From IMG/VR virus record IMGVR_UViG_3300025122_005155, positions 1 to 30,383 of that record: a stretch of 30,383 nt of DNA. One strand, 5' to 3'. The notes under the pieces were generated by a model. The model saw nothing but the letters and a program-made list of their open reading frames with translations, had not been told where the DNA came from and made no database searches. Shown piece by piece: positions 232-19,961 of this stretch. Positions within the stretch are counted from its first letter, which is position 1; each line of letters opens with the position of its first letter. The position numbers and the translations under genes are program-made. This stretch comes from a virus.

Positions 232-417
232 CTAGAGTCCGCTGTCGACGGTGTCGATCTCCGAGTCCGCTGTCTCGAACAGAGCCTTGATCTTTCCTCC
301 GAACTGCACAGATATCGCTATGCAGACGATGGCTATGGCCACCAGGATGATGACGTACTCCGTCATGCCCTGTCCCCTCTGTCCCCTCTGTCCGCGCGCG
401 TTTGTGGGTATCACCAT
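232..417 (-). CDS. Flp/Fap-type (type IVb, Tad) pilin-like protein
   Basis: A 61-residue protein. I chose the ATG at 417 because the reverse strand has AAGGAGGT six bases upstream; a longer frame reaches 705 but its extra N-terminus is not protein-like. The leader is short and basic and ends in repeated RGQ. It is followed by GQGMTEYVIILVAIAIV, which fits the prepilin peptidase pattern: cleavage after Gly, Glu at +5 and Tyr at +6 of the mature protein, then one hydrophobic helix. Flp pilins of Tad systems have exactly this layout and a length near 50-80 residues. The tail is acidic. No TadV, TadA or TadE genes are visible, so export and processing would need host machinery. It is the only reverse-strand gene in this part of the window and looks like a single-gene transcription unit. 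Confidence 0.8.
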   Translation of the reverse strand: MVIPTNARGQRGQRGQGMTEYVIILVAIAIVCIAISVQFGGKIKALFETADSEIDTVDSGL

Positions 418-438
418 GGGTGCACCTCCTTCCCAGAT

Positions 439-444
439 ATTATA
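439..444 (-). promoter_or_regulatory. candidate -10 box of the pilin gene
   Basis: The reverse strand reads TATAAT here, 21 bases before the pilin ATG. This leaves room for a short leader carrying the strong Shine-Dalgarno sequence. No convincing -35 box lies 16-18 bases upstream, so it could be an extended or activated promoter. Confidence 0.4.
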
Positions 445-529
445 ACAGGATTTCCCGGATTGGGTTGTTACCAAGTTGTTAATGTTTCCGAAGCGAACTC
501 CTCGAGCCCAAACCCAGCCCACCGGAAAA

Positions 530-736: not shown

Positions 737-1705
737 GTGAAGATATCAGAGTCACACCTACGACGATTGATCTCCGAGGAGCTTCGGAAGCTGTGGGAGG
801 TCTCGTGGAGGTGGGATCCTAAATCATCCGGTCGACGGGGAGGACGACATCACCCCGAGCCCGGAACGGTCCGCGGACCCCAGCCACCCGGATCGTGGCC
901 CCACCACGTGTCACCGAGGAACTTCCAGGATACGATCGATCTCCTGAGGTCCACCGACGAGTTCGGTCGGGTGACGACCTCCGGTATATACGATCACCTC
1001 CGTGCTGCGGGTTACACCGACGACGCCATCTCCGTCGCCGTCGACGAGTACTCCGGATCGGAACTCGACGAGGGATCACACCTACGTCGGTTGATATCCG
1101 AGGAACTCCGGTCGCTCCGGGAGTCCGACCCGAGGTTCTGGTCCAGTTTCGAGGCTGACATCATGTCCCGGGACCCAAGCCGATGGGATCCTCCGGAGAC
1201 AACCGAGTGGCCGGAGGGAACCCCCCTCTTCGCCCGGAGGCCGACGGAACGGTCGGAACCACCTAGCCTGGACCACGTCGACATGGCCCTGGTTGGAAAC
1301 CTGGTCCGCGATCTCGGATACGATGTCCACAAGGTGATAGCCGGCCGGTTCGGTTCCCGGATGAAGGTCTACAGTCGCCAGGACGGGCACCGGCTGGGCG
1401 TCGGCCTTCCTGTGTACGACGACAGAGGTCACGAGGTCCGGAACCCGGTGGCAGATGTGCTCGACCGGATCCAGGACCTGCAGCTCCGGATCAGCAAGGA
1501 CTTCTGGGATGCCCATCCCCACTCCAAGGACCCGAAACCCCGGAAGCACATCCTCACCCTGGAGAAGCTCCGTGAGGAGATATCCCAGGCGATCGAGGAG
1601 GCCCAGGGACTCCAGGACATGTTCTCGGAGAGAGGGGATCCCCGGCTCTCCCAGGAGATCGGCAGCGCGCTGTCCGAGTTTAAGAAGGAACTTCACTGGC
1701 GTTAA
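737..1705 (+). CDS. putative internal virion protein with two copies of the N-terminal charged module
   Basis: 322 residues from a GTG start. Residues 7-21 read HLRRLISEELRKLWE, the best example of a module shared by most genes up to 8211. A second copy, HLRRLISEELRSLRE, lies at residues 115-129 and is nearly identical in DNA too. Between the copies is an Arg/Gly/Pro-rich stretch and a short helical domain. The rest is charged and helical, with Leu/Arg-rich heptads near the C-terminus (about 240-320). No catalytic motif is visible. The two copies suggest fusion of two once-separate genes or internal duplication. If the module is a capsid-targeting peptide, LWE (19-21) and LRE (127-129) would be T4-type processing sites. 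Codon use is strongly GC-biased (the 60 bases from 1381 contain 42 G or C). Confidence 0.7.
   Translation: MKISESHLRRLISEELRKLWEVSWRWDPKSSGRRGGRHHPEPGTVRGPQPPGSWPHHVSPRNFQDTIDLLRSTDEFGRVTTSGIYDHLRAAGYTDDAISVAVDEYSGSELDEGSHLRRLISEELRSLRESDPRFWSSFEADIMSRDPSRWDPPETTEWPEGTPLFARRPTERSEPPSLDHVDMALVGNLVRDLGYDVHKVIAGRFGSRMKVYSRQDGHRLGVGLPVYDDRGHEVRNPVADVLDRIQDLQLRISKDFWDAHPHSKDPKPRKHILTLEKLREEISQAIEEAQGLQDMFSERGDPRLSQEIGSALSEFKKELHWR
752..1123 (+). repeat. imperfect direct repeat encoding the duplicated module (752-799 and 1076-1123)
   Basis: Two 48-base segments, both starting TCACACCTACG, encode the two copies of the HLRRLISEELR module in the same frame. They differ at only a minority of positions, many of them synonymous. 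This points to a fairly recent duplication or gene fusion. Confidence 0.7.
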
Positions 1706-1714
1706 GCCTTCCTG

Positions 1715-1729
1715 GGGGAACTTTTCCCC
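1715..1729. terminator. short GC hairpin after the 737 gene
   Basis: GGGGAA-CTT-TTCCCC forms a perfect 6-bp stem with a 3-base loop, 10 bases after the stop codon. No T-run follows, so it is a weak candidate for an intrinsic terminator. It may instead be an mRNA-stability hairpin. Confidence 0.3.
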
Positions 1730-1749
1730 AACCTTTCACCCACAGAAGG

Positions 1750-1757
1750 ATACTTAG
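1750..1757 (+). promoter_or_regulatory. ATAYTTA motif upstream of the 1793 gene
   Basis: ATACTTAG lies 43 bases before the TTG start, almost the same spacing as the copy at 560 (42 bases). Both are preceded by GG and followed by an AC-rich segment including CACG. Confidence 0.3.
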
Positions 1758-1792
1758 ACACGTGGTGCTATCCGCGCCGCCGGAGGTCCAAC

Positions 1793-2026
1793 TTGGAAGA
1801 CGTAACAGAAGAGGTCATCCGAAAGGTTGTCAAGGAGTCTGTCACCAGGTTGGGACCGAAGTCCCGGGAGGAGTTTTGGGTGGGGAACGCCATCATGAGT
1901 GCTCTGAGTGACATCGGGTACAGGTTGTTCGCCAGCCGGCAGGAGGAGATCCTGGACATCGCCCGTCGGATTGTCGAGATGGCCGAGGAAGATTCCATGA
2001 AGATGGGGAGCGGAAAAGAACGATGA
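1793..2026 (+). CDS. small helical protein, module-related N-terminus
   Basis: 77 residues from a TTG start, chosen for the GGAGGT five bases upstream. The N-terminus (residues 5-19, TEEVIRKVVKESVTR) resembles the shared charged module but lacks the terminal (L/I)-x-E. The rest is helical and charged, with no catalytic motif. Its stop overlaps the next start (ATGA), which suggests translational coupling. The function is unknown; co-location suggests the same compartment as its neighbours, probably the virion. Confidence 0.6.
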   Translation: MEDVTEEVIRKVVKESVTRLGPKSREEFWVGNAIMSALSDIGYRLFASRQEEILDIARRIVEMAEEDSMKMGSGKER

Positions 2027-2460
2027 ACGAGAAGGAACTGAGAAGGATTATCCGGTCTGAGGTTAAGGCCCTGCGGGAGGCACGAGTGTCGACCGCGGCC
2101 TCTGACCCTCCAGAACCGGAGACCATGGTGGCCACCCGGGATGCCGGTGTGGCAGCGTCACACAAGGAGTACCTGGTTGACATAGCTGACGAGTTGGCGG
2201 TGGAGATGCTTCAGAATCGGACCATGTTCCGGAGCGCCATTCACGTGCTAGCCCGCGGTTTCGTCCTCCTCCGAAATAAGGTGGGTGTACATCCTGATGA
2301 TCGTGGTGACCATGTCCTCTCTATAGAGAACGCCTTCATGAATGTTTTGGATTCCATGATTCGGCGCGACATCGAGTCACTGGAGATCGACCGGTCGGAG
2401 GACCGTTCCGCGGGGGCTAGCCCACCATTATCTGAAACTACCTCAGAGGACCCCTCCTGA
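2023..2460 (+). CDS. putative internal virion protein with N-terminal charged module
   Basis: 145 residues. Residues 5-19 read ELRRIIRSEVKALRE, a clear copy of the shared module ending in LRE, a possible prohead-protease site. Residues 45-120 form a helical domain including the pattern SHKEYLVDIADELAVEML, and the C-terminal 25 residues are acidic and Ser-rich. The start overlaps the previous stop (ATGA) and the stop overlaps the next start (TGATG). No known domain is recognised. Confidence 0.65.
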   Translation: MNEKELRRIIRSEVKALREARVSTAASDPPEPETMVATRDAGVAASHKEYLVDIADELAVEMLQNRTMFRSAIHVLARGFVLLRNKVGVHPDDRGDHVLSIENAFMNVLDSMIRRDIESLEIDRSEDRSAGASPPLSETTSEDPS

Positions 2461-2801
2461 TGGACCAGCTACAGAAAATCATTGACCGTGAGGTCAGGGA
2501 ACTTCTCGCTGAGCAGGATTTTGGATCTGTTCGAGCCGCCGGCGGAGATGTTGGCAAGCTGGGATCAGCCCTGTCCACCGACCTAGCAGCGGCCTTCCAA
2601 TCCGTCACCTCCCGATTAGCCCAAATTGAACAGGCCATCTCCTCGATCCCAGCCGCGACCAGATCCGACATTGAGTCGGCCATCGACGACACAGCCAAGA
2701 GAGTTGACTCCCCTGAGAAAGCGGAGGCCTTCGAAGGATCCATCCGAACCGGTCAGGTTGGTCGACAGTTACATACGTACAATCAAGGAACAGTCACATG
2801 A
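2460..2801 (+). CDS. putative internal virion protein with N-terminal charged module
   Basis: 113 residues, beginning with DQLQKIIDREVRELLAE (2-18), a copy of the shared module ending in LAE. The middle (residues 35-85) is Ala/Ser-rich and predicted helical, with heptad-like hydrophobics that could form a coiled coil (AAFQSVTSRLAQIEQAISSI). No catalytic residues are visible. It overlaps genes on both sides by 1-4 bases, so it belongs to one polycistronic unit. Confidence 0.65.
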   Translation: MDQLQKIIDREVRELLAEQDFGSVRAAGGDVGKLGSALSTDLAAAFQSVTSRLAQIEQAISSIPAATRSDIESAIDDTAKRVDSPEKAEAFEGSIRTGQVGRQLHTYNQGTVT

Positions 2802-3688
2802 AACTTACCAAGAGCGAGATATACGGCATCATCCGAGAGGAACTGACCCCCATTATAAAGGAGGAGCGGTCCAGTCGTCATGATGAAGACGAGATCCACG
2901 ATCCTGATGCGAAGGAAGAGCCCGAGGAGGAGGAAAAGGAAGAGGAACTCGAGGAAATGGCCGGCCGAGAATCTCCTGGTCGTTACGCCATCCGTGACTG
3001 GATGCAAGACCACAAGGGACAAATTGACCAGCTAGCCGCCGCCGCGTATTCCCGTGGTAATGCCGCGCGGGCTGCTGAGGGATTGTACAACCTCCTGATG
3101 TCCATCCAGGATGCTGACCTGGTTGGCCGCGGGGTCTCCCCCGATAAGATGGGACGGCTCCTAATGGCCGTGCAAAAACTTAATCAAATAAGGAATCCTA
3201 GAATGCGGGCCCAGCGCCTGGCCGGCCTGGCTTATGGCAACATCCTAGGTGCCGAGGGTCTCCAGGCCCTCCGGGAGGGTGTTGAGAAGGCCAAACCCGT
3301 GTCGCTCAACGCCACTGATCTCCGAAGAATCATCACCCAGGAGTCCCAGAAGATCAACGAGATCTTCACCTCGGCAGGAGGTATCGGGTTCGTCGACCTG
3401 CCGACTATGACCCGGAGGAGCTCCTTCCTGGATGAGAATCCTCCGATGGACCACGCCGAGGAGATCGAGGAACAATCCGGACCCATGGATGGGGCCCGTG
3501 AAACCATCCAGTTCGACCAGATCCTCGAGGACCCGTTGATGGGATGGGTTGTGGAAGTTCTCCGGGCTAGGTGCCTCTGTAAAGAGACCATGGACGACGG
3601 TAGAGAGATCGATCTGGACCCGCGGGGACTTGATCCGGATACCGAAGCCCGATTAACTCGCTTCATTCACCACTCCGGTGGTCGGTAG
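2798..3688 (+). CDS. putative internal virion protein with N-terminal and internal charged modules
   Basis: 296 residues. Residues 1-22 carry the module (KLTKSEIYGIIREELTPI, then IKEE). Next comes a very acidic Glu-rich stretch (about 25-52). Residues 55-155 form a helical domain with the pattern YAIRDWMQDHKGQIDQLAAA. A second module copy, SLNATDLRRIITQESQKINE, starts near residue 168, so the protein again looks like two module-led units joined. The C-terminal part contains a Cys pair (RCLCKETM) and acidic residues. IKE, INE and LEE sites would be T4-like cleavage candidates. The start overlaps the upstream stop as ATGA. Confidence 0.65.
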   Translation: MKLTKSEIYGIIREELTPIIKEERSSRHDEDEIHDPDAKEEPEEEEKEEELEEMAGRESPGRYAIRDWMQDHKGQIDQLAAAAYSRGNAARAAEGLYNLLMSIQDADLVGRGVSPDKMGRLLMAVQKLNQIRNPRMRAQRLAGLAYGNILGAEGLQALREGVEKAKPVSLNATDLRRIITQESQKINEIFTSAGGIGFVDLPTMTRRSSFLDENPPMDHAEEIEEQSGPMDGARETIQFDQILEDPLMGWVVEVLRARCLCKETMDDGREIDLDPRGLDPDTEARLTRFIHHSGGR

Positions 3689-3713
3689 AGGAATAGAGGA
3701 AAGGTACCCGAAC

Positions 3714-4028
3714 ATGAAGATCAAATTATCAGACCTCCAGCAGATCGTCCGGGAGGAGATTAAGAAGTCCAAGGGAAAGTGGGTCCAGGACCCTCCGGAG
3801 GGATCACCCCGTGCGGAGGACCAGTTGGAGGCCCAACACCCGTCGGAGATCGTCCCCCTATCCACGTGGGAGGGTGGGGATAACCTCCACCTCGACGTCG
3901 ACCACCCTAAGGATGCCGGATCTGAGGCCACCACCAAGGAACTGGAGATCCTGGCCCTGGTCAAGGAGGTCATCTCCAACCACATTGTATCCCTAATTTC
4001 TGAGAACTCGTCCACGAAGGAAGGTTGA
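3714..4028 (+). CDS. small acidic protein with N-terminal charged module
   Basis: 104 residues from ATG 3714, which has AAGG nine bases upstream; an upstream in-frame GTG at 3678 overlaps the previous gene and is less likely. Residues 1-18 read as the module (KIKLSDLQQIVREEIKKS). The remainder is acidic, Pro/Glu-rich and probably partly disordered, ending with a short helix (ELEILALVKEVISNHIVSLI). There is no (L/I)-x-E directly after the module. The function is unknown. Confidence 0.6.
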   Translation: MKIKLSDLQQIVREEIKKSKGKWVQDPPEGSPRAEDQLEAQHPSEIVPLSTWEGGDNLHLDVDHPKDAGSEATTKELEILALVKEVISNHIVSLISENSSTKEG

Positions 4029-4035
4029 CCCCGCT

Positions 4036-4749
4036 GTGAAGATCAACGAGAAAAATCTTAGGTCCCTCGTTCGGGACGTCCTCCTCGAGGCCTACGGCGA
4101 CGACGCTGCCTACGCCCGGAGGGAGAGGCAGTTTCAGGCCGCGCAGGGCCGTTACGACGCCATGGAACCCCCGGAGGATCCTTACGACCCTGATGACTTT
4201 CGTGAGGAGGCCTTGGTGGCCATCCTGGACAATGTCACCGAATTCGATGATCGAGTAACTCTTCCTCTCATTGAGGCGGAGACCGATATCAACGTTATTC
4301 TCTTCAGTGCGGCTAGTGAGGATGTAAGCTCCCTTCCTGAGGACATCCAGGAACTTGTTCCAAGCCTGCAGGCGGCAACCGGAGGTGGGAACATGGAACT
4401 GTTGGACGATGAGGCTGTTGACATTGTCCTATCGAATGATTGGAAGTGGAAAGATGTCGGCAAGAAGAGTTTGTACGGCACACCTCTCCGGACGGTGGAA
4501 ATCACCAAAGAGGGTTTAATCTTAAGGTTAGCTACTCACCTGATCGGAGGCTTTGGAAAAAAACTAGACATCTCTAATCTTCCTCCCTCATGGAAGTCTC
4601 TCGCTGAATTGATTTCTGACCACATCTTAAAAGCAGTTGACCGCCTACTTGAGGATTCGGAGTGGGTCGAGCAAGCATACCAGGATGCACGAGAGGCCGC
4701 CGAAGAGGACGCCGCGGAGGCCAAAGCAGACTACCCTGACGATTGGTAG
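4036..4749 (+). CDS. acidic putative internal virion protein with N-terminal charged module
   Basis: 237 residues from a GTG start, 7 bases after the previous stop. The first 18 residues, KINEKNLRSLVRDVLLE and the initiator, match the shared module, and LLE-A is a candidate processing site. The mature part is acidic, with a domain at about 45-190 of mixed strands and helices and a strongly acidic Ala-rich C-terminus. No enzyme motif is visible. The protein is unrecognised. Confidence 0.65.
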   Translation: MKINEKNLRSLVRDVLLEAYGDDAAYARRERQFQAAQGRYDAMEPPEDPYDPDDFREEALVAILDNVTEFDDRVTLPLIEAETDINVILFSAASEDVSSLPEDIQELVPSLQAATGGGNMELLDDEAVDIVLSNDWKWKDVGKKSLYGTPLRTVEITKEGLILRLATHLIGGFGKKLDISNLPPSWKSLAELISDHILKAVDRLLEDSEWVEQAYQDAREAAEEDAAEAKADYPDDW

Positions 4750-8211: not shown

Positions 8212-8930
8212 TGATCCATGTCGAACAGAATGTTGACCTGGACGAGAATGACCTCGGGATCATAGAGGAGTTCTTCAGATTCTGCTGCGAGAGGTTGGAA
8301 CTTCCAGAGACTGTCTCCGTCCACCTTGTCGCCAACCGGGATGGTCTGACCACCGCGGGTGCGTACCACGTCGGTGAGTCAAAGTGTCGTGTCCTGGTAG
8401 GAGACCGGGCGAGGGCAGATGTAATGAGGTCCATGGCACACGAGATGGTTCATGCTCAACAGGATGGACTGGGACTTTTAGGTGGACATGTCCAGGATAT
8501 CGGAGGTGACATTGAGGATGAGGCCAATGCCGTTGCGGGCCGGCTGGTCAAGGAGTTCTCCTACGACTATGGTGTTGACAAGGTGTACGAGGGCCTAGAC
8601 CCTTCTAGGATCGACTTTAGGCAGCTAACACGAGGATTTCTGGTCGGTGAGTCCCAACCAGACTGCCAGATTGTCAACGAGGTCTCCGGTAAGGTCGACC
8701 CCAACAATCCCTTCGGCAATGTCGACATCGACTATCAGATCCGGAGGATGATCGGAGAGCTAATCTCGATGAACGGCCTGACGAATCGTTCGATGATTAA
8801 CGTTCTGCGTTCCCTGCAATTTCTTAGTGACTCCACCCACCGCTCCTGTGATGAGCTACTTCAACAAATGCTGGATGTCCTTAATCAGGAGATGACGAGT
8901 CGTCCTCATCCCCAGGAGATAGAAGTCTAG
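8208..8930 (+). CDS. HExxH zinc metalloprotease-like protein
   Basis: 240 residues. HEMVH at 78-82 is a classical zinc-binding HExxH motif, and DEANAVAGRL from residue 104 supplies a downstream Glu/Asn environment like the third-ligand helix of gluzincin or M78-type (ImmA/IrrE-like) peptidases. It sits at the end of the putative virion operon with a 4-base overlap with the 6142 gene. It could be a virion-processing or ejected peptidase. The C-terminal 100 residues are helical and unrecognised. It lacks the charged N-terminal module. The last 50 bases overlap the 3' end of the convergent protease gene. Confidence 0.65.
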   Translation: MMIHVEQNVDLDENDLGIIEEFFRFCCERLELPETVSVHLVANRDGLTTAGAYHVGESKCRVLVGDRARADVMRSMAHEMVHAQQDGLGLLGGHVQDIGGDIEDEANAVAGRLVKEFSYDYGVDKVYEGLDPSRIDFRQLTRGFLVGESQPDCQIVNEVSGKVDPNNPFGNVDIDYQIRRMIGELISMNGLTNRSMINVLRSLQFLSDSTHRSCDELLQQMLDVLNQEMTSRPHPQEIEV

Positions 8931-9642
8931 TTTTACTCTCTTCTATAAAGTTCCTTATTTCCCTTAGAGGAACAACAATAGCAAAATTCTCCATTAGGGG
9001 AAAAGATGCAGAGACTATCCCTATTAGTTCTCCTCTAGAGTTTAAAACAGGCGATCCGCTACTCCCTGAGCCTATGGGGATCGTATAAATGTCCATGTCC
9101 ATGTTTAAACTTCTTCCACTGTAAATACCTTCAAATATCAAGATAAAATTTGGCTCAAAAAGGGCATAAGGAGCAGCTATATTGTAAACTCTATCACCTC
9201 TTTTAGGTGGGATACGAGACAGTCTAATAGGTTTTCCAACATCGTTGTTAGATTCAAGCAAACAAAGATCTACATCTAGTTGAAAAGTTAAAATTTCTGC
9301 GTCAAAAGTCTCAAAATTGTAATTTATCACCTGGTTTTTTGTTTCAACAGTTGCTAATGTACTAGATTTTTGATCCATGTCACAAGAATGACCAGCCGTA
9401 AGAATGTATGACTTTCCATTATCTTTAAAGACAATAACACCCGATGAAGATTGAACGACACCAGAAATTTCTACTTGATCAGAGTTTTTTTCTACAATTT
9501 TAGACTCGTATAAAACAAATGATTCTGTGGGTAGTAGGTTGCTGCTATATATTTTTAAAGTTATGACAGACAAGAACAGAAATAATGTAACAATTATAAA
9601 AATTCTCGATAATCTGTTCATTTTTTTCAGAGTTTGACTCAC
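8881..9642 (-). CDS. membrane-anchored trypsin-like serine protease
   Basis: 253 residues from GTG 9642; ATG at 9621 (residue 8) is an equally plausible start and neither has a clear ribosome-binding site. Residues 13-32 form a hydrophobic signal anchor. The trypsin-fold triad is visible: TAGHS (His85), FQLDVDLCLLE (Asp125) and GSGSSGSP (Ser195). The fold probably begins near residue 58. It resembles small S1-family periplasmic proteases of the DegP/trypsin superfamily, but no PDZ domain follows. The protein would sit in the inner membrane facing the periplasm. It is AT-rich, unlike the gene it overlaps, and marks a sharp change in composition. It is the only gene on this strand between 8.9 and 20 kb. 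Confidence 0.8.
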   Translation of the reverse strand: MSQTLKKMNRLSRIFIIVTLFLFLSVITLKIYSSNLLPTESFVLYESKIVEKNSDQVEISGVVQSSSGVIVFKDNGKSYILTAGHSCDMDQKSSTLATVETKNQVINYNFETFDAEILTFQLDVDLCLLESNNDVGKPIRLSRIPPKRGDRVYNIAAPYALFEPNFILIFEGIYSGRSLNMDMDIYTIPIGSGSSGSPVLNSRGELIGIVSASFPLMENFAIVVPLREIRNFIEESKTRLLSPGDEDDSSSPD

Positions 9643-9714
9643 AAAAATAACTATGCCACTGTGGAAAAGATAGTTTATTGTGTATGTTTCATAAAAAAAC
9701 TATAGAATCATTTT

Positions 9715-9930
9715 ATGAAAAGACAAGTGTTTATCAGTGCAACTAGGAGCTCTATCTTAGAGATACCGTGGGATCTTTCTAAAGAACAGTCCATCATTTT
9801 AAAATCAGAAATTCTTAAATCTATTTCATCCGGATCAATATCTGGATGGCCCGTAGAGTTTGAACAGTTTTTAGACTCTTCTGAATTTGTGACTTTATCT
9901 GGTCCTTCAAAGGGGTGGTGGAAATACTGA
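9715..9930 (+). CDS. small hypothetical protein
   Basis: 71 residues from ATG 9715, with no clear ribosome-binding site. It starts KRQVFISATRSSILEIPWDL and ends with a Trp-rich SGPSKGWWKY. No motif is recognised. It follows the divergent gap from the serine protease (9643-9714), where ACTATAGAATCAT may be part of a promoter. It lies four bases before the deaminase GTG and is probably co-transcribed. Confidence 0.5.
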   Translation: MKRQVFISATRSSILEIPWDLSKEQSIILKSEILKSISSGSISGWPVEFEQFLDSSEFVTLSGPSKGWWKY

Positions 9931-9934
9931 GATT

Positions 9935-10318
9935 GTGACAGATTCGTCTACGTTATTGCAAATTGCAATTAGAGAGGCTGTTAAAAGTCCAATGTCATAC
10001 CGACATGGTGCTGTCCTGATTTCTAAAAATAAAATATTGGGATCCGGATTTAATAGTTTTAGTTCTAGTGTCGGAAACGTAAATTTCCAGGTTCCTGGAA
10101 GAAAGAAACCCTGTGTCCATGCAGAAGTTTCCGCTCTTAAGGGACTGAGGCACGATCAAATAAGAGGAAGCACCATGTTTGTCATTCGAATCAACAGAGA
10201 TCACGACCTAAAAATGAGCTATCCCTGTAAGAGATGTGTCTCTATGCTGAGAAGGAAAGGTGTTAGAAAGGTCACTTTTAGCACAGGAAACGGATATTTT
10301 GATCACATTTATCTTTAA
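9935..10318 (+). CDS. cytidine/deoxycytidylate deaminase-family zinc enzyme
   Basis: 127 residues from a GTG start. HAE at 62-64 and PCKRC at 97-101 form the zinc site of the CDA/dCMP-deaminase superfamily, where the Glu is the proton shuttle. Preceding GAVLISKNKILGSGFN is the usual core strand-helix. In phages, such enzymes usually deaminate dCMP to dUMP to feed thymidylate synthesis, but a tRNA or nucleoside substrate cannot be excluded. The protein is shorter than typical dCMP deaminases (about 170-190 residues), lacking their extended N-terminal zinc region. Neighbouring genes do not include a thymidylate synthase. Confidence 0.75.
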   Translation: MTDSSTLLQIAIREAVKSPMSYRHGAVLISKNKILGSGFNSFSSSVGNVNFQVPGRKKPCVHAEVSALKGLRHDQIRGSTMFVIRINRDHDLKMSYPCKRCVSMLRRKGVRKVTFSTGNGYFDHIYL

Positions 10319-10375
10319 CATTTTTTAAAGACTCGTTATTTTTATTCTTAACATAAAAGAACTTGAGCTAGTACC

Positions 10376-10852
10376 TTGAAAATATTTAAAAGAATACTAG
10401 AACTTAAAGATTACTTAAAAGAAGTAGAAGGCCCTAATAAGAAACTAGTTGTAACTAGTGGTGGCTTTGATCCGCTTCACGTAGGGCATCTTAGATGTAT
10501 CCTAGACTGTTCCAACCTGGCCGATATTGTCATAGTTGTAGTTAATGGTGATGGATTCCTAACAAGAAAAAAAGGAAAACCTTTTATGAACCTCGTGGAA
10601 AGGATGGAAATAATCTCCGGAATTAGAGGCGTTGACTATGTTGTCCCGTGGGATGACGGAAGTCAGACTGTGACTGGAGCCTTGGAAATTCTCAAACCTG
10701 ATATCTTTGCAAAAGGAGGAGATAGAGACTCTTCGTCAAATGTTCCGGAATTTGACATGTGTCAAAAAATAAAATGTGAGGTTGTTTTTAATGTAGGGGG
10801 TCACAAAATACAATCAAGTAGTTCGTTAGTCGAAAATTTTATCAATCATTGA
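10376..10852 (+). CDS. HldE/RfaE-like nucleotidyltransferase
   Basis: 158 residues from a TTG start; no other initiator lies upstream in a sensible place. It matches the cytidylyltransferase fold: SGGFDPLHVGHLR holds the HxGH motif (35-38), KGGDR at 113-117, and IQSSSSLV at 145-152 corresponds to the nucleotide-binding SSS motif. The combination KGGDR, VVFNVGG and KIQSSS is characteristic of the C-terminal adenylyltransferase domain of HldE, which makes ADP-heptose for LPS core. The kinase domain is absent. In context it may supply a nucleotide-activated sugar for the glycosyltransferases downstream (26.5-30.4 kb), as in other phages with surface-sugar genes. Confidence 0.8.
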   Translation: MKIFKRILELKDYLKEVEGPNKKLVVTSGGFDPLHVGHLRCILDCSNLADIVIVVVNGDGFLTRKKGKPFMNLVERMEIISGIRGVDYVVPWDDGSQTVTGALEILKPDIFAKGGDRDSSSNVPEFDMCQKIKCEVVFNVGGHKIQSSSSLVENFINH

Positions 10853-10889
10853 CCTCCGTTGAATACATATTTTTGACACGGAGATCGTC

Positions 10890-11363
10890 ATGGATGAGCA
10901 ACCTAATTTCGAAATTCTTTCTAAGTTATCGATAATTGAATCGATTCTTCAATCGGCTCCGGCTCTCAACGGAGAGTTTGAATCACTTGTAAAGGATGTT
11001 CAGATTATAAAAGAGTCTCAAGATCAAATCAAGGAGTCTTTGGCGTCAATTAAAAAATCGGTCTACGAACCTGATACGGGAGTTTTTTCCCGGGTCCAAA
11101 GGCTAGAAGAAAAAATTACTAGACAAGAAGAATTCGATCAATCGGTATCGATCATGTCAGATCGTCACAAAGAAATTTCCATATGGGTCGACGATAAGGA
11201 TAAATTAATAAGTGATCTGTCCAACGATTTAAAAATATCTTCACAGGAACTAGACAGATTGGTTCAATGGAAGGCTAACGTAAGTAAGATTCTCTGGGTG
11301 ATAAGTGCAACAGTAACAACTTTAATTGTCAAAACATTGTTTACTTTGTTATCTTCTTCATAG
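10890..11363 (+). CDS. coiled-coil, tail-anchored membrane protein
   Basis: 157 residues from ATG 10890 with GGAG eight bases upstream. Residues 5-130 have heptad-like hydrophobic spacing (LASIKKSV, RVQRLEEKI, LDRLVQW) and are probably coiled coil. Residues 133-152 (ILWVISATVTTLIVKTLF) form a single C-terminal membrane span. The layout resembles XhlA-like holin accessory proteins and other phage coiled-coil membrane proteins, but the coiled coil is longer than in XhlA. No endolysin or holin lies adjacent, so lysis function is unproven. Confidence 0.55.
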   Translation: MDEQPNFEILSKLSIIESILQSAPALNGEFESLVKDVQIIKESQDQIKESLASIKKSVYEPDTGVFSRVQRLEEKITRQEEFDQSVSIMSDRHKEISIWVDDKDKLISDLSNDLKISSQELDRLVQWKANVSKILWVISATVTTLIVKTLFTLLSSS

Positions 11364-11378
11364 TAGGAATAGCTTAGC

Positions 11379-12551
11379 GTGTCAATTTTCAGACAGCATA
11401 AATCTTCTTCAGATCGATCCGCATCAGATCGGAGACGACACAAGACAAAGATTGAAAAAGCCATTAAGGATGGCATTCATAACATTATTGCAGAAGAATC
11501 TATCATTGGAAAAGATGGAAAGAAGAAGATAAGAATTCCAGTTAAAGGAATCAAAGAATACCGCTTTGTCTACGGAGATAACAAAACAAATAAAAAGGTG
11601 GGTTCTGCCCCTGGAAAAAATATTAAAAGAGGGCAAAAAATTGGTGATAAAAGAAAAACTTCTCCTGCTCATGGCAATAAACCCGGAGATAAACCTGGCG
11701 AAGAATACTATGACGTAGAGGTTACTTTAGAAGAACTTTCTAGATACTTGTTTGAAGATTTAAACTTACCAGAACTTGAGAAGAAAAAATTCAAGTTCGT
11801 GACACAAGAAAAACCTAAAAGAAAAGGACACAGAAACCAGGGCATTAGAATCAGATTATCCAAGAAAGAAACCATTAAAAATAAACTTAAAAGAAAAGCG
11901 ATTGCCAAGAAATTAGGAACATATGACGAAGATTCTGATGAAAGATTTCCTTTTCATGAGTCTGATTTGAGATATCGACATTTTTCTAACAAGCCAAAGG
12001 AAAATAGTTGTGCTGTCGTCTTTTTTATTATGGATGTTTCGGGTAGCATGTCTACTCAAAAAAAATACATAGCCAGAAGTTTTTATTTCTTAGTCTATCA
12101 GTTCCTAAGGTACAAGTATGAAAACATAGAAATTATTTTTATTTCTCACGATACCAGCGCAAAAGAAGTTACTGAAGATGAGTTTTTTTCTCGGGGTTCT
12201 AGTGGAGGAACACTGATATCTCCGGCTCTATCTTTGATGGGAGACATAGTTGAAAAAAGATACCATCCCACCATGTGGAACATCTATGGTTTTCACTGTT
12301 CTGACGGTGACAATTGGTCAGATGACATCCCAAGAACATTAACAGAAACTAAAAAATTAATTGACATGTGTCAAGTTTACACGTTTTGTGAGATAACCCC
12401 AGAAGGAGAAACTTATGGAAAAGATTTTTCCGATACATACAGTACGTACTTGCCTTTTTATGGAAAGAAATTTAAAATTGTAAAAATTACTTCTCCTTCT
12501 GAAATATGGCCAGTTTTCAAGAAAGTTTTTGGAGGTAGAGAAGATGTATGA
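11379..12551 (+). CDS. yeaH: YeaH/DUF444 family von Willebrand factor A protein
   Basis: 390 residues from a GTG start with TAGGA upstream. The N-terminal half is basic and Lys/Gly-rich, including a GGTG-like flexible linker (75-110), as in DUF444 proteins. The C-terminal half is a VWA domain: MDVSGSMS gives the MIDAS DxSGS (219-223), followed by RSFYFLVYQFLRYKYENIEI, SSGGTLISPAL and WNIYGFHCSDGDNW, all close to E. coli YeaH. In bacteria YeaH works with the PrkA kinase and SpoVR in stationary-phase and nitrogen-stress responses. It is the first gene of the three-gene set here and overlaps spoVR by 8 bases. Confidence 0.92.
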   Translation: MSIFRQHKSSSDRSASDRRRHKTKIEKAIKDGIHNIIAEESIIGKDGKKKIRIPVKGIKEYRFVYGDNKTNKKVGSAPGKNIKRGQKIGDKRKTSPAHGNKPGDKPGEEYYDVEVTLEELSRYLFEDLNLPELEKKKFKFVTQEKPKRKGHRNQGIRIRLSKKETIKNKLKRKAIAKKLGTYDEDSDERFPFHESDLRYRHFSNKPKENSCAVVFFIMDVSGSMSTQKKYIARSFYFLVYQFLRYKYENIEIIFISHDTSAKEVTEDEFFSRGSSGGTLISPALSLMGDIVEKRYHPTMWNIYGFHCSDGDNWSDDIPRTLTETKKLIDMCQVYTFCEITPEGETYGKDFSDTYSTYLPFYGKKFKIVKITSPSEIWPVFKKVFGGREDV

Positions 12552-13854
12552 CTGGTCTGTATCAGAACTTAATAAGTGGGATAATAAAATATGTAAAATA
12601 GCTTCATCTTATGGATTAGACTGGTTCGAAATTGACTATGAGATCTGTGATTATTATGACATGATAGGAAATATGTCGTATACCGGCATGCCAACTCATT
12701 ATCACCACTGGAGTTTTGGAAAGCAATTTGAAAGAACCAGGTTTTATTACGACATGGGATTGGAAGGACTTCCGTACGAGATGATCATTAATTCAAACCC
12801 CAGTATCGCTTATCTCATGAGAGAAAACTCTCTTCCCATGCACATACTGACAATGGCACACTGTGTAGGACACTCTGATTTTTTTAAAAATAACAAAACC
12901 TTCCGTCATACAGATCCTGAAAATATAATTTCAAGATTTAGATCAGCAGCTGAGAGAATTAGAAAGTATGTAGAAGATACAACTATAGGAATTGAAGAAG
13001 TTGAAAATATCTTAGATGCCTGTCACAGCTTAAAGTACCAGCGAGATCGAGTATCCGGGGTTAAGAGATTGACACATGAAGAAATAGTAAATAAAAAAAT
13101 TAGAAAAATCAATCTTAAAGAAAAAGGGTACGAATATATTGTCCTGGACAAGTTTCCCTCTGAACCTGATTATAACATCCTACAGTTTATTAGAGACAAT
13201 AGCAGAAATCTTAGTGAGTGGCAGAAGGATATTATTAGCATAGTTGATAACGAGACAGAGTATTTTATACCTCAAGCACAGACAAAAATTATGAACGAAG
13301 GATGGGCATCGTTCTGGCACTATAAGATACTCCACGACCTCGACCTCCCTCAGGAGTTTCATTTTTCTTTTATAAAGACTCACAACCAGGTTATTAGACC
13401 ACACTTGGGTGGAATCAATCCTTACCATGTTGGTTTTAAAATTTTCGCTAAGATTGAAGAAGAAGAAGGATTGGAATCCTGTTTTTTTGCAAGGGAAGTT
13501 CACAATGACACGTCATTTTTAATGGAACACCTTGATGAAAAACTGTGTAAAGATTTAAATCTATTTTCTTTTTCTAAGAAAAAAGAATACTATTCTATTG
13601 ATGAAATTTCTGACGATGATGGATGGCAGGTCATTAAAAGAGATTTTATAAATTCAGTGGGCCTTAATGCTGTTCCAAAAGTTTACGTCGAGAGTGTTGA
13701 TAGGCATGATTGTTTGATGACTGTTAGACATGAGTTTGACGGTCGAGAGCTTAATTTAGAATATGCTGATAAGGTTTGTCACAAGATTTCAGACTTGTGG
13801 GGCGACGAAGTTAGGTTTTTTACAATAATAGAGGACGAAGATTGGGAAATATAG
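12544..13854 (+). CDS. spoVR: SpoVR/YcgB family protein
   Basis: 436 residues from ATG 12544, which has GGAGG six to seven bases upstream; an earlier TTG is less likely. Diagnostic segments of the family are present: GMPTHYHHWSFGKQFERTRF, INSNPSIAYLMRENSLPMH, AHCVGHSDFFKNN, then NEGWASFWHYKILHDL and a C-terminal domain at about 325-436. SpoVR is needed for spore cortex in Bacillus, and YcgB is its proteobacterial counterpart in PrkA regulation; its biochemical activity is not settled. It is full length or nearly so (E. coli YcgB is about 510). The His residues (HYHHW, AHCVGH) are retained. Confidence 0.93.
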   Translation: MYDWSVSELNKWDNKICKIASSYGLDWFEIDYEICDYYDMIGNMSYTGMPTHYHHWSFGKQFERTRFYYDMGLEGLPYEMIINSNPSIAYLMRENSLPMHILTMAHCVGHSDFFKNNKTFRHTDPENIISRFRSAAERIRKYVEDTTIGIEEVENILDACHSLKYQRDRVSGVKRLTHEEIVNKKIRKINLKEKGYEYIVLDKFPSEPDYNILQFIRDNSRNLSEWQKDIISIVDNETEYFIPQAQTKIMNEGWASFWHYKILHDLDLPQEFHFSFIKTHNQVIRPHLGGINPYHVGFKIFAKIEEEEGLESCFFAREVHNDTSFLMEHLDEKLCKDLNLFSFSKKKEYYSIDEISDDDGWQVIKRDFINSVGLNAVPKVYVESVDRHDCLMTVRHEFDGRELNLEYADKVCHKISDLWGDEVRFFTIIEDEDWEI

Positions 13855-13865
13855 TCCTTTAACAG

Positions 13866-13893
13866 TTGCTCGATAATATTTACTATTGATAAT
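13866..13893 (+). promoter_or_regulatory. candidate promoter of prkA
   Basis: TTGCTC (13866-13871) and GATAAT (13888-13893) are separated by 16 bases, a reasonable sigma-70 arrangement. The recurrent ATATTTAC motif (13876-13883) lies between them. The whole sits 13-40 bases before the prkA ATG and after a 51-base gap from spoVR. Confidence 0.35.
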
Positions 13894-13905
13894 CAGGAGT
13901 TTTAC

Positions 13906-15837
13906 ATGGCCTCGTCTGAACTTTTAGGTCTGATCAAAAAACATAGAAAAGAGAGGAAAGTTGACAAATTTTCCGGAACTCTTCTTGACTATCTAGAGAT
14001 TATAAAAGATGATGTTTCTATTTGTAATCTTGCCCATAAAAGACTTTACGATGCCATTGTAGAAAAAGGTATCGATCCAATGGATCCGTCAGATATAAGA
14101 TGCAAAAAATTATTTGAGGGTGAAAGTGTCCCAATTTATGAGTACTACTCACCTCATTTTTTTGGAATGGAAAGATGCATCTCTCAGTTTATGAGATTTT
14201 TAAAATCTGCCTCCATGAGAGGAGAAGAAAGTCGTCAAGTTCTTCTCCTTTTGGGTCCGGTAGGAGCAGGAAAGTCTGCACTGGTAGAAAGAACAAAAAA
14301 GATCCTGGAGAGCCTTCCTCCCATTTATCACCTCGAGGGATGTCCCATCAGGGAGGAACCTCTTCATTTGATTCCTAGGTCATTAAGATCTCAATTTGAG
14401 GAAATTCTAGGAATCAAAATTGAAGGTGATCTGTGCCCAGTTTGTCGCCACCGACTTCAAAATGAATTTAAAAATCAGTACGAAGATTTTCCAGTACAAA
14501 CATCCACGTTTTCAATCAGGGCTCGGAGAGGGATAGGAGTTGTTCCTCCAATTGATGCAAACACACAAGATGCTTCAATCCTTGTGGGATCTGAGGACAT
14601 ATCAAAGTTAGACCTATATCCTGAAGATGATCCAAGAGCTATTTCTTTAAATGGCGCGTTTAATGTTGGAAATAGAGGTGTTGTAGAATTTGTAGAGATT
14701 TTTAAAAATGAGATTGAATTTTTACATGTTATATTGACCGCCACTCAGGAAAAATCAATTCCATCCCCTGGTAAAAATTCAATGATCTACTTTGACGGAG
14801 TTATACTTTCACACTGCAATGAAGCTGAGTGGAATAAATTTAAGTCGGATCATACTAACGAAGCCATTCTTGACAGGATCGTGAAAATAACCGTTCCTTA
14901 CTGTCTAGAACTAGATGAAGAAATTAAAATTTATGAAAAGCTAATAGAGCAATCTGATTTTAAGGCACACATTGCTCCTCACACTCTCCGAGTCGCATCA
15001 ATGTTTTCTGTGATGTCCCGATTGAAAGAATCCCAAAAATGTGACATTCTTACCAAGATGAAGATCTACAATGGATCAGAGATCGTTGAAAAAGGAAAAG
15101 TTAAAAAGGTTGACATAAAGGATCTGAGAGAAGAGACTCGTGAAGAGGGCATGACTGGTATTTCTACAAGGTTTGTCATGAAGTCCATTGATAACGCTCT
15201 TTCTGACTCCACAAACGGGACAATTACCCCCATATCGATCAGGGAATCCCTTGTCAAGCAAGTAAAAGAACAGGTCGTAGCTGAAGATGAAAGAACTAGA
15301 TACCTTGAACTACTCCAAAAGGTTATACACGAGGAATATTTAAACCTTCTCGAAAAAGAAATAACTAAAGCATTTGTCATGGCCTACGAGGAACAAGCTG
15401 AGTCACTTTTTGATAACTACTTAGATCATGCTGAAGCTTTTGTTAACAAGACAACCCTCAAAGACGATACCACTCGAGAAGATCGAGATCCAGACGAAAA
15501 TTTCATGAGATCAATCGAGGAACAGATTGGAATTACAGGTTCAGCTAAAGACGGTTTCCGAAACGATGTTACTAGTTATATGTTCGCTCTCTTAAGGAGG
15601 GGAAAGAAGGTTAAGTGGAACACTTACGGACCTCTCAAGGATGCCATAGAAGGTAAGCTTATGTCGTCTGTTAGGGAGATAGCAAGGATTGTGACCAAGT
15701 CAAAAACTAGGGATAGAAAACAAAAAAAGAAGTATGATGACATGGCTCGGACCCTCATAGAGGATTATGGATACAATGAAGACTCTGCTGAAGAGATTCT
15801 CAAATATGCTGCAAACCATCTATGGAGAGACAACTAA
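13906..15837 (+). CDS. prkA: PrkA family AAA+ serine protein kinase
   Basis: 643 residues, the same length as bacterial PrkA/YeaG. ATG 13906 has AGGAG upstream. An N-terminal domain precedes the Walker A motif GPVGAGKSA (117-125). Then come the Cys-containing LCPVCRHRLQ, the family-specific FSIRARRGIGVVPPIDANTQDAS, LNGAFNVGNRGVVEFVEIFKN and the Walker-B/sensor region ILTATQEKSIPSPGKNSM. The C-terminal part (about 400-640) is the kinase-like domain. The protein would phosphorylate Ser/Thr targets in the cytoplasm; bacterial targets are only partly known. With YeaH and SpoVR it reconstitutes the complete cellular set in one phage operon, in the order yeaH-spoVR-prkA. Confidence 0.93.
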   Translation: MASSELLGLIKKHRKERKVDKFSGTLLDYLEIIKDDVSICNLAHKRLYDAIVEKGIDPMDPSDIRCKKLFEGESVPIYEYYSPHFFGMERCISQFMRFLKSASMRGEESRQVLLLLGPVGAGKSALVERTKKILESLPPIYHLEGCPIREEPLHLIPRSLRSQFEEILGIKIEGDLCPVCRHRLQNEFKNQYEDFPVQTSTFSIRARRGIGVVPPIDANTQDASILVGSEDISKLDLYPEDDPRAISLNGAFNVGNRGVVEFVEIFKNEIEFLHVILTATQEKSIPSPGKNSMIYFDGVILSHCNEAEWNKFKSDHTNEAILDRIVKITVPYCLELDEEIKIYEKLIEQSDFKAHIAPHTLRVASMFSVMSRLKESQKCDILTKMKIYNGSEIVEKGKVKKVDIKDLREETREEGMTGISTRFVMKSIDNALSDSTNGTITPISIRESLVKQVKEQVVAEDERTRYLELLQKVIHEEYLNLLEKEITKAFVMAYEEQAESLFDNYLDHAEAFVNKTTLKDDTTREDRDPDENFMRSIEEQIGITGSAKDGFRNDVTSYMFALLRRGKKVKWNTYGPLKDAIEGKLMSSVREIARIVTKSKTRDRKQKKKYDDMARTLIEDYGYNEDSAEEILKYAANHLWRDN

Positions 15838-15847
15838 GGATCAGCTT

Positions 15848-16093
15848 GTGACTGTTCAAACCAATGACATTGGTAGTAAACTTTTTAAGGCTGCCAAAGC
15901 TCATTTTGAATCTGAGAGAGATGATGCACTAGCAACATTAGCCATTTATTTTAGAAACCCAGTTGCCATTGGTGATCATCCAAATTTCTTAGAAGAAATA
16001 AAGTCTCAAATTTCTAAATTATCCAGTGCTGAAGAAGCTATTGAATCTCTTGAAAAAAACTTTAGTAATTTTGAAAAATCTATTTTAAGATAG
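15848..16093 (+). CDS. small conserved-type phage protein, helical
   Basis: 81 residues from GTG 15848, with AAGGAT about eight bases upstream. The frame is open back to 15767 inside prkA, but that start has no ribosome-binding site. Features are FRNPVAIGDHPNFLEEI and a flanking Ala/Glu-rich helical pair (SSAEEAIESLEKNF). I recall similar N-P-V-x-I-G-(D/E)-H-P small proteins from marine T4-like phages; their function is unknown. It follows prkA by 10 bases. Confidence 0.6.
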   Translation: MTVQTNDIGSKLFKAAKAHFESERDDALATLAIYFRNPVAIGDHPNFLEEIKSQISKLSSAEEAIESLEKNFSNFEKSILR

Positions 16094-16106
16094 TAAGATT
16101 CATCAG

Positions 16107-16331
16107 ATGCTTTCTAAAGAAGCTAAAATATTTAAATCTTCTTTTCCCGGATGTGAGATTAAGGAAGAAATAGATGGAAATGAAAGAGTTGTGTGGATCT
16201 ACTGGCAGACTCTTAACGGATTGTTAAAAATTGACATTCGACCAGATAGAATAGATGATATTGAAAAATTTACGAAAACTCTTTCAGAAAGAATGTCAGT
16301 TTTAGTCTCTATAGATCAAGAGTTCTCGTGA
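16107..16331 (+). CDS. small hypothetical protein
   Basis: 74 residues, with no recognised motif. The sequence has a beta-strand-rich middle (ERVVWIYWQTLNGLLKIDIR) and a helical C-terminus. It overlaps the following GTG start by four bases (GTGA), which implies co-translation. Charge is mixed and there is no signal peptide or membrane segment. Confidence 0.5.
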   Translation: MLSKEAKIFKSSFPGCEIKEEIDGNERVVWIYWQTLNGLLKIDIRPDRIDDIEKFTKTLSERMSVLVSIDQEFS

Positions 16332-16585
16332 AAACTACACAAAAAACAACTCATCCAAAAAATCAAAAATTTGATCATGATGAAATCATTCTCCGATCGA
16401 AGATTGAGATCGGAGATGAATACGAGTACTCTATTCACCATGGTGGAATTGGAAAATCGTTACACGTACTAGCACCTAGTAAAGAGGAAGCTTCGAAACT
16501 TAGAAAAATTATTCCCAGTTATTTCTGTGGATGTAGAACTATTGTCACATACTACAATATAAAAGATGACTTTAGTGACGTGTAA
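16328..16585 (+). CDS. small hypothetical protein
   Basis: 85 residues from a GTG start overlapping the previous stop. The central GDEYEYSIHHGGIGKSLHVLAP looks like a beta-hairpin, followed by KEEASKLRKIIPSYFCGCRT. The C-terminus is acidic. No domain is recognised. It is the last gene before the tRNA, and a 31-base gap follows. Confidence 0.5.
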   Translation: MKTTQKTTHPKNQKFDHDEIILRSKIEIGDEYEYSIHHGGIGKSLHVLAPSKEEASKLRKIIPSYFCGCRTIVTYYNIKDDFSDV

Positions 16586-16592
16586 AACTAAA

Positions 16593-16600
16593 ATATTTAC
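16593..16600 (+). promoter_or_regulatory. ATAYTTA motif upstream of the tRNA
   Basis: ATATTTAC, continuing as TATACAATAATATC, lies 24 bases before the mature tRNA 5' end. It closely resembles the copy before prkA (ATATTTACTAT...AT). It may drive the tRNA-tilS unit. Confidence 0.35.
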
Positions 16601-16616
16601 TATACAATAATATCAT

Positions 16617-16693
16617 CGGCCCCTAGCTCAATAGGTTAGAGCACCCGGCTCATAACCGGTAGGTTCTGGGTTCAAGTCCCAGGGGGCCGACCA
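16617..16693 (+). tRNA. tRNA with CAU anticodon, best read as tRNA-Ile2 (lysidine-modified)
   Basis: A complete 77-base cloverleaf with encoded CCA. The acceptor CGGCCCC pairs fully with GGGGCCG, the D-arm is GCTC/GAGC, the anticodon loop is CTCATAA (CAU at 16651-16653), and the T-arm is CTGGG/CCCAG with TTCAAGT. CAU alone allows Met or Ile2. The acceptor C4-G69 and C5-G68 pairs are positive determinants for TilS in E. coli, and the body resembles E. coli tRNA-Ile2 more than tRNA-Met. A TilS gene starts 23 bases downstream. After C34 is changed to lysidine this tRNA would read AUA. The C1-G72 pair is unusual for elongator tRNAs. Confidence 0.93.
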
Positions 16694-16715
16694 ATTTTAT
16701 TTTTTTGGAGGAAAG

Positions 16716-17327
16716 GTGATTAAAAGTAACGTTAAGATCCCTGATCAAGTAGCAATTGCTGTTTCAGGAGGGCCTGATTCAATGGCGATTTTAGATTTTC
16801 TTAGACGCGGCCCAAAAGAGATTCAGGTTCTTCATTTCAATCACGGAACTGACCATTCTTTTGAAGCCGAAGAGATTGTAAGGGACTATTGCGACAGGTG
16901 GAAGATCGATCTCAAGGTTGGAAATCTTACTGAGAAAGTTACTAAGGGATCTTCTCTTGAAGAGTTTTGGAGAAAAAACAGGTATAATTTTTTTGAAAGG
17001 TCAACCAAAAGACCGGTGATTACCTGTCATCACCTCGATGACGTTGTTGAGAATTGGGTATTTACCTCTTTAAACGGGAATCCAATGATGATCCCATCTA
17101 AGAGGGGAAAGTACATCAGACCGTTTCTGGTGACCACTAAGAAGGACTTGCTTAGTTGGTGTGATAGAAAAAACGTTCCTTATATTATCGATCCAAGCAA
17201 TAGTGACACGTCATTCATGAGAAACTTAATTAGACATGAACTCATTCCAGTTGCATTGAAAGTAAACCCAGGACTGTCTAAGGTGATTAGAAAAAAGGTG
17301 TTAAATCTTCCAACTATTTACCAGTAA
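16716..17327 (+). CDS. tilS: minimal tRNA(Ile)-lysidine synthetase
   Basis: 203 residues from a GTG start, with GGAGG a few bases upstream. It belongs to the PP-loop ATPase family: SGGPDS (17-22) is the ATP-binding motif, and HFNHG (40-44), CHHLDD (104-109), RPFL (135-138), DPSNSD (159-164) and RNLIRHELIP (169-178) follow TilS in order. TilS modifies C34 of tRNA-Ile(CAU) to lysidine, changing its reading from AUG to AUA and its charging from Met to Ile. The C-terminal substrate domains of E. coli TilS (432 residues) are absent, so this is a catalytic-core-only form. Placement directly after the cognate tRNA supports the assignment of both. Confidence 0.9.
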   Translation: MIKSNVKIPDQVAIAVSGGPDSMAILDFLRRGPKEIQVLHFNHGTDHSFEAEEIVRDYCDRWKIDLKVGNLTEKVTKGSSLEEFWRKNRYNFFERSTKRPVITCHHLDDVVENWVFTSLNGNPMMIPSKRGKYIRPFLVTTKKDLLSWCDRKNVPYIIDPSNSDTSFMRNLIRHELIPVALKVNPGLSKVIRKKVLNLPTIYQ

Positions 17328-17366
17328 TCCCACTGTCAGTATGATAAACTAGTGAGGAAAACGTTA

Positions 17367-17642
17367 ATGCCTGATCTTAAATGTAAGAAATGGAATCGAT
17401 TGGGAATATTTGACTCTTATGAGACTGCTGAAGATAAAAAAAATGATCTTCTTAAATCTTTGCTTGAAGATTCTTTAAAGAAATCTAGCACAAAAAAAGA
17501 TAGTGATGACAAAGAATCTGAGTTTCTTGTCAAAATAAAGAGATGTGGTCCTAAGGGAAGTAAGTTTCAAGTAAAGTATTGGGTTGACAACCCTCAAGAT
17601 CTTAAGAAAAATAAGGGAAAAAAGAGATCTAAACGCCGATAA
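17367..17642 (+). CDS. small basic hypothetical protein
   Basis: 91 residues from ATG 17367; AGGA lies 10 bases upstream, and an in-frame GTG at 17352 is an alternative. The first part (WNRLGIFDSYETAEDKKNDL) and the later strand pattern EFLVKIKRC...FQVKYWV suggest a small alpha-beta fold. The C-terminus is a Lys/Arg tail (KNKGKKRSKRR) that could bind nucleic acid. It is similar in style to small phage proteins of unknown function. The stop is followed directly by the chaperonin frame. Confidence 0.55.
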   Translation: MPDLKCKKWNRLGIFDSYETAEDKKNDLLKSLLEDSLKKSSTKKDSDDKESEFLVKIKRCGPKGSKFQVKYWVDNPQDLKKNKGKKRSKRR

Positions 17643-19016: not shown

Positions 19017-19483
19017 TGCAAGGAATAAAACATCTCATAGAATGTCACTGTATACTTCCTCAGTATAGAAAAAGAAAAGATGCAGTTTTTCATAAGTTCA
19101 TTGTGTTTTCAGTCATAGTTGACAACGACAAAGTTGTAGAAAAAATTGCTAAATGTAACAACTGTGCAGCTCTTCACCGAATTACAGAAATTTGTAAGTC
19201 TGAAATTGTTATTGGAAAAGAGGATGTTAACTGTGTTTCATCTATAGACGATATCAAAACTTGTGTTCCAAACGACCTGTGTGATGTTTTAGAATCTTAT
19301 GATGTCGACCTTCCAACTTGGGAACACGCTCAGTTCATTCTTGAGAACAGGTTGTGGGGAGATAAGTTAGTGTTAACAAAAGAAGAAATAGATTCTAAGA
19401 TCTATGGGAAGATTTTAACTGTAAAAAATAGGAACTCATACAAAGTTGAATCATTTAGTATGGAATCTGAGATGGAAAGGTAG
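19016..19483 (+). CDS. conserved-type phage protein with cysteine pairs
   Basis: 155 residues; ATG 19016 overlaps the chaperonin stop (TAATG). It starts with ECHCILPQYRKRKDAVFHKFIVFSV and continues with AKCNNCAALHRITEIC. The CHC and CNNC pairs could make a zinc site. Later it has DLPTWEHAQFILENRLWGDKLVLT. I recall closely similar small proteins in marine T4-like phages, with unknown function. Overlap with the chaperonin gene suggests coupled translation and perhaps a common process. Confidence 0.6.
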   Translation: MQGIKHLIECHCILPQYRKRKDAVFHKFIVFSVIVDNDKVVEKIAKCNNCAALHRITEICKSEIVIGKEDVNCVSSIDDIKTCVPNDLCDVLESYDVDLPTWEHAQFILENRLWGDKLVLTKEEIDSKIYGKILTVKNRNSYKVESFSMESEMER

Positions 19484-19485
19484 AG

Positions 19486-19737: not shown

Positions 19738-19741
19738 GGTG

Positions 19742-19959: not shown

Positions 19960-19961
19960 AC

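Follow-up and report, generated by a model that had tools for sequence, protein, structure and literature searches.

What would a marine phage do with a single pilin gene, and is that gene its own? The stretch of DNA analysed here (the window, a virus record of 30,383 bases) carries on its minus strand, at positions 232-417, a small ORF that a preliminary description had read from the letters alone as a phage-borne Flp (Tad) pilin. The locus thus raises questions as to whether the product is a prepilin, whether the gene resides in phages, and to what end a lone subunit might be kept.

The ORF encodes a type IVb (Flp/Tad) prepilin, apparently intact. Its strand and coordinates had been given exactly, and its translated product is MVIPTNARGQRGQRGQGMTEYVIILVAIAIVCIAISVQFGGKIKALFETADSEIDTVDSGL (61 aa). 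Flp_Fap (PF04964) is the sole Pfam family to match it (E 1.7e-5, 25.0 bits; E 9e-7 in a search of the virus record itself), with the score falling under the curated Pfam cut-off of 32.2 bits. For this branch of the family, the threshold is apparently too strict, because the pilin heading the tad operon of a candidate host, the MAG locus L016, likewise scores under it (28.9 bits). Within the motif RG/QGMTEY, cleavage is predicted after Gly15 (at the slash); this would separate a short leader of 15 aa, MVIPTNARGQRGQRG (373-417, minus strand), ending in RG, from a 46-aa mature pilin (235-372, minus strand) bearing Glu+5 and Tyr+6. Q-G-M-T-E-Y with these two residues is present in every phage and bacterial copy, in line with the intact prepilin signature claimed at the outset. 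The single helix that had also been proposed is predicted by an AlphaFold model, in which an unstructured leader precedes one helix spanning residues 16-60 (mean pLDDT 76.8), beginning with the first residue after the predicted cut; the mature subunit would thus be small, single-helix, and hydrophobic to amphipathic in character. A structure search with this single-helix model gave no significant match, and no credible match for the pilin was found in PHROGs or NCBIfam.

The mechanical ORF extends as far as 705. Two features support a start at 417: the Shine-Dalgarno sequence AAGGAGGTG (423-431, minus strand), which precedes the ATG by 5 nt, and a homologous start in a related phage contig, G007 (MVIPT / MISPT). 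The preliminary description had drawn attention to a strong ribosome-binding site and a TATAAT box belonging to the gene itself; both can be read from the sequence, the latter as a -10-like hexamer at 439-444 (minus strand; TATATT at equal spacing in G007), though a scan upstream of the pilin found no sigma-70 -35 box. Farther upstream lies a 19-nt element, TTAACAACTTGGTAACAAC (464-482, minus strand), with two TAACAAC copies 11 bp apart. It also occurs in G007, where the copies read TAACAAC and TAATAAC; TTAACAACTTGGTAAYAAC is common to the two contigs, in each case 19 nt upstream of TATAWT, and the intervening sequences are unlike. By chance, 0.02 occurrences of the element (with up to 3 mismatches) are expected in the window. 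No exact match beyond G007 was found in viral_contigs (IMG/VR), a search in which the window's own record possibly was not included, and across 2.2 Mb of fetched loci the element was detected (with up to 2 mismatches) nowhere except in the window and G007. The remaining pilin-bearing phage contigs, G008-G010, are without it. Pairs of YAACA at 10, 11, 21 or 22 bp were detected upstream of the bacterial pilins L015, L019, L022 and L023, i.e., in 4 of the 11 bacterial copies not preceded by tad genes as opposed to 0.3% of random 250-nt windows; this pattern and its spacings were picked after inspection of the sequences, and the distance to the start differs between cases. We thus treat the pairs only as a lead to a possible regulatory link between phage and bacterial pilins.

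The pilin is a real phage gene, resident in a marine phage clade. The preliminary description had proposed a search for homologues in phage genomes and in candidate hosts, and this search returned both: four further IMG/VR contigs (G007, G008, G009 and G010) encode the pilin, and relatives are present in six MAGs. As G009 and G010 are practically identical over their common part, the contigs represent three distinct versions besides that of the window. All share with the window a common gene set comprising DUF444 (YeaH-type), SpoVR, a PrkA-like kinase and a trypsin-like protease, and a PhoH-like gene is present in all pilin contigs except the fragment of G007. The pilin of G008-G010 is flanked by an HD-domain gene upstream, with which it is co-directional, and by a small gene; it sits inside a variable stretch bounded by two genes (at 9725 and 11884 in G008) that are near each other in many pilin-less members of the clade. 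In the window and G007, it adjoins phage genes of unknown function: the 76-aa ORF at 1-231 of the window has no match and no relative was found for it, nor did the ORFs tested between 737 and 8208 give a match above curated cut-offs. The minus-strand placement of the pilin stands; the virion identity that had been ascribed to its plus-strand neighbours is not established, given the lack of matches above cut-off. The claim that no other Tad gene accompanies the pilin was upheld across the five phage contigs, all of which are fragments: prepilin peptidase (PF01478) and TadA-type ATPase (PF00437) are absent from them, and a motif scan revealed no second prepilin-like ORF. Rather than a complete Tad system with peptidase and ATPase alongside, these fragments carry the pilin only.

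Several other features of these phages were recorded along the way. The trio of DUF444 (YeaH-type), SpoVR and PrkA-like kinase genes, at 11379-15837 (plus strand) of the window, is conserved throughout a large clade with contigs of up to 257 kb. A divergent GroEL-like chaperonin (17643-19016, plus strand; PHROG 5725, E 2.9e-15) displays 26-32% identity between the pilin phages, compared to 50-77% for several neighbouring genes. G+C content in the window changes in sharp steps (located at ~8900 and at 22500-26500), from 52-61% up to ~8.9 kb to 33-40% up to ~22 kb and 52-54% in the tail-fibre gene. Many adjacent ORFs at 737-4749 (plus strand) of the window, and at 21074-28489 of G007 (L072/L073), start with one short amphipathic stretch. 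Those of the window read LRRLISEEL, LRRIIRSEV, LQKIIDREV, IYGIIREEL, LQQIVREEI and LRSLVRDVL, each followed by unrelated sequence, and about twelve consecutive ORFs in G007 have starts of the type MKITKxQLRQIIKEEL; such starts might serve as tags for targeting or cleavage, for instance as capsid-targeting sequences. Directly downstream of a CAT-anticodon tRNA (16617-16693, plus strand) lies a PP-loop gene of the TilS type (PF01171; 16716-17327, plus strand). Given this neighbour, the tRNA may be an isoleucine tRNA, called Met by ARAGORN, that is modified by the phage's own TilS-type enzyme.

Close bacterial relatives of the pilin (70-89% identity) were found only in six MAGs in a pattern-based scan of genome_contigs. 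These are titled "Deltaproteobacteria bacterium" or "uncultured proteobacterium", with at least one being marine to judge by its title (TaraRedSea), and all six fall in one GTDB order, for which seven genomes were examined; the seventh gave distant matches only. In 5/6 MAGs, such a pilin lies within ~0.3 kb of a Peptidase_A24 gene. A tad operon beside it was confirmed in one MAG (L016), in which the pilin and Peptidase_A24 are followed in a row by TadE, Tad, TadE, RcpC, secretin, FHA-TadA and T2SSF. Copies away from tad genes also occur (e.g., L009 and L014), and in UBA6601 the tad-type A24 gene adjoins a different, more distant pilin-like gene. The preliminary description had named homologues confined to virion cassettes, in phages whose hosts lack Tad systems, as the pattern that would speak against its reading. 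This is not what we see, as the nearest cellular homologues adjoin a prepilin peptidase and the phage neighbourhoods of the gene vary.

From G/QGMTEY onward, the phage pilins and those of the six MAGs (e.g., RS363 L016 and UBA6601 L009) are near-identical and share the cut motif; this near-identity of the mature part extends to the tad-operon pilin of L016 and to others adjoining tad genes. Before the R-G, the leaders are unrelated and differ in length, at 25-26 aa in the MAG pilins versus 10-15 aa in the phages. The upstream DNA of the MAG pilins is likewise unlike that of the phages, and their copies either adjoin tad genes or occupy orphan sites on the chromosome. The break between leader and mature part at the predicted cleavage site is the best sign that selection preserves the mature subunit. 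From the pilin itself, we infer that the phages probably infect members of the MAG order. No spacer-like match was identified among DNA matches of window positions 8881-28700 to bacterial genomes, with the two strongest window/bacterial DNA matches being a tRNA and the 3' end of a tmRNA, both generally conserved. The window encodes a phage tmRNA at 19962-20323 (plus strand; 117 bits, Rfam) with the tag ANNSNYNDYALAA; tmRNAs are also present in G007, G008 and G010 and, with different tags, in several pilin-less members of the clade. We considered the tmRNA as a host link, the phage tag ANNSNYNDYALAA being like the ANDSNYALAA of the bacteria, yet the genes are only 45-48% identical; the link was dropped, as the phage tmRNA genes group with phages of the clade.

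Selection on the mature part could be gauged from those phage pairs in which synonymous sites are still informative. For G008 versus G009/G010, dN/dS is 0.03 (dS 0.71), and for G007 versus G008 it is 0.05 (dS 1.5); in the remaining phage pairs synonymous sites are saturated, with pN/pS at 0.07-0.11. Strong synonymous divergence combined with a near-constant protein implies that the gene has long been kept as a protein in separate phage genomes. The window's pilin gene has a GC3 of 0.77, compared with 0.33-0.46 for the other phage copies and 0.76-1.00 for the bacterial ones. Ile15 and Ser21 of the mature part are present in all phage pilins and are absent or rare in the bacterial ones, with position 15 being Val in the bacterial copies. 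Being phage-resident, with close cellular relatives and under selection (dN/dS 0.03-0.05 where measurable), the gene has the properties of a host-derived auxiliary gene.

Within the phage clade, the distribution of the pilin is patchy and out of step with a core gene, the PrkA-like kinase. Relatives of this kinase are present in 193 stretches of viral_contigs, of which the best 80 were used. None of 50 other clade records (up to 257 kb, possibly incomplete) contains the pilin, the two matches at E ~0.01 among them being scraps of 18-19 positions. In a kinase tree built with a quick method, the window groups with G008 and G010 in one clade, apart from G007, with the starred branches forcing two changes. 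In a pilin tree, all four phage pilins cluster (88/88), though this tree has 46 columns and resolves little. Because the window and the distant G007 share the 19-nt element at fixed spacing, and it is otherwise unseen in IMG/VR, the pilin and its promoter have probably moved between phages. Such cassette exchange is the simplest reading of the distribution, with common descent and many losses as the alternative.

Known systems offer partial parallels to such an arrangement. In Aggregatibacter (Actinobacillus) actinomycetemcomitans, the Flp1 prepilin, with its Glu+5/Tyr+6 motif, is cut by a dedicated peptidase, TadV; there, one genome holds a full tad locus, whereas the phage contigs (fragments) hold the subunit alone. 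The Pseudomonas phages D3112 and DMS3 encode small anti-pilus proteins, Tip and Aqs1, respectively, which bind type IVa pilus motors; these too are small phage products affecting host pili, and so superinfection, but here the product is itself a pilin and of the Tad (IVb) type. Caulobacter PilA (8u1k; also 8u2b and 8ucr, "Flp family type IVb pilin") resembles the phage pilin in its short leader, Glu+5/Tyr+6 and single-helix subunit, its signal peptide being 14 aa long and its mature helix 45 residues (PMC11067988). In sequence it is distant, its structures giving weak profile matches to the phage pilin (E 0.2-0.35), and it is bacterium-encoded and known to form pili. Among the 50,697 phage records of INPHARED, neither the phage pilin nor a bacterial relative had a match, and neither did an approximate Caulobacter-type pilin sequence used as query. 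No earlier report of a phage-encoded Flp pilin was found in the open-access literature. The protein is thus a new member of a known family, and, as far as the collections searched extend, a lone, apparently mobile pilin that phages carry with an upstream element and a leader of its own seems to be a new form of host-derived auxiliary gene.

How might such a gene act? We propose, as a reading with about even chances of being right, that a host-derived Flp pilin serves as an accessory gene in part of a large clade of marine phages and that its subunit feeds the host Tad pilus. The pilin would be transcribed from its own promoter during infection, and the host prepilin peptidase (TadV) would cut the short leader after Gly15. 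The resulting 46-aa subunit would then join the host's Tad pilus, mixing with or replacing the near-identical host pilin, such that the phage keeps up or re-faces Tad pili while taking over the cell. The likeliest benefits would be altered receptor properties that hinder rival pilus-binding phages, or longer adhesion of the infected cell. Assembly of a lone pilin into the host pilus had been raised in the preliminary description, and what it presupposes exists, namely a pilin that phages carry together with upstream signals of its own, and a lineage of bacteria in which near-identical pilins occur along with prepilin peptidases and TadA-type ATPases. The same description had suggested that the pilin could instead poison the pilus; this idea is weakened, since strong purifying selection on a mature part that hardly departs from the bacterial subunit fits an assembly-competent subunit better than a crude poison. 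In a bolder and distinctly more tentative form, phages would exchange a pilin-plus-promoter cassette that swaps the host Tad subunit in infection, perhaps under a host-type regulator; if true, a host surface organelle would be controlled through the supply of a competing building block.

Feeding of the host pilus has to be weighed against readings in which the pilin acts otherwise. Superinfection exclusion, whereby the processed phage pilin jams, saturates or caps assembly such that functional Tad pili are lost and pilus-dependent phages with them, would fit a subunit that comes without other tad genes on the phage contigs (fragments), and Tad pili are indeed phage receptors in Caulobacter (PMC11067988). 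Moreover, mature position 15, with its Ile in phages and Val in bacteria, corresponds to Val29 of Caulobacter PilA, which contacts PhiCb5 (PMC11067988). This match is suggestive at most, as a lone contact position is weak evidence, and the strong conservation of the mature part, including Glu+5 and Tyr+6, is expected of an assembling subunit; we consider such interference unlikely. That the protein has given up pilin assembly and been reused to serve the phage as a membrane or virion peptide strikes us as rather improbable: its one helix would be suitable for a small membrane peptide, and in the window and G007 the gene adjoins phage genes of unknown function, yet the prepilin cut site, Glu+5, Tyr+6 and nearly all mature residues have been kept. 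Unlike a core virion part, the gene also varies in neighbourhood and orientation, and 0/50 of the other clade contigs carry it.

Two further readings would deprive the gene of any role. Bacteria of this group carry several pilin copies, some of them orphans, which makes chance pick-up likely, and patchiness within the phage clade would suit a passenger that brings the phage no benefit. Strong purifying selection across large synonymous distances argues against this, as do the probable transfer from phage to phage and the fact that leader and upstream element do not resemble their bacterial counterparts; we give it very little credence. An assembly artefact, joining bacterial DNA to a phage contig, comes to mind because the pilin is close to a contig end in two cases, at a distance of 232 bases in the window and ~0.5 kb in G007. 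However, in G008, G009 and G010 it is surrounded by clade genes well away from the contig ends, the gene occurs in three distinct phage versions in addition to that of the window, and leader and upstream element differ from those of all bacterial copies, making such a joining scarcely credible. Bacterial contamination was rejected, since clade genes flank the pilin within phage contigs.

Ultimately, phage proteins acting on pili mostly bind or inhibit the machine; if feeding of the host Tad pilus holds true, supply of a subunit would be another route by which a phage controls adhesion and adsorption. The pilin also hints at which bacteria these uncultured marine phages may infect and, paired with a host TadV as its would-be processing enzyme, lends itself to a simple two-component test.
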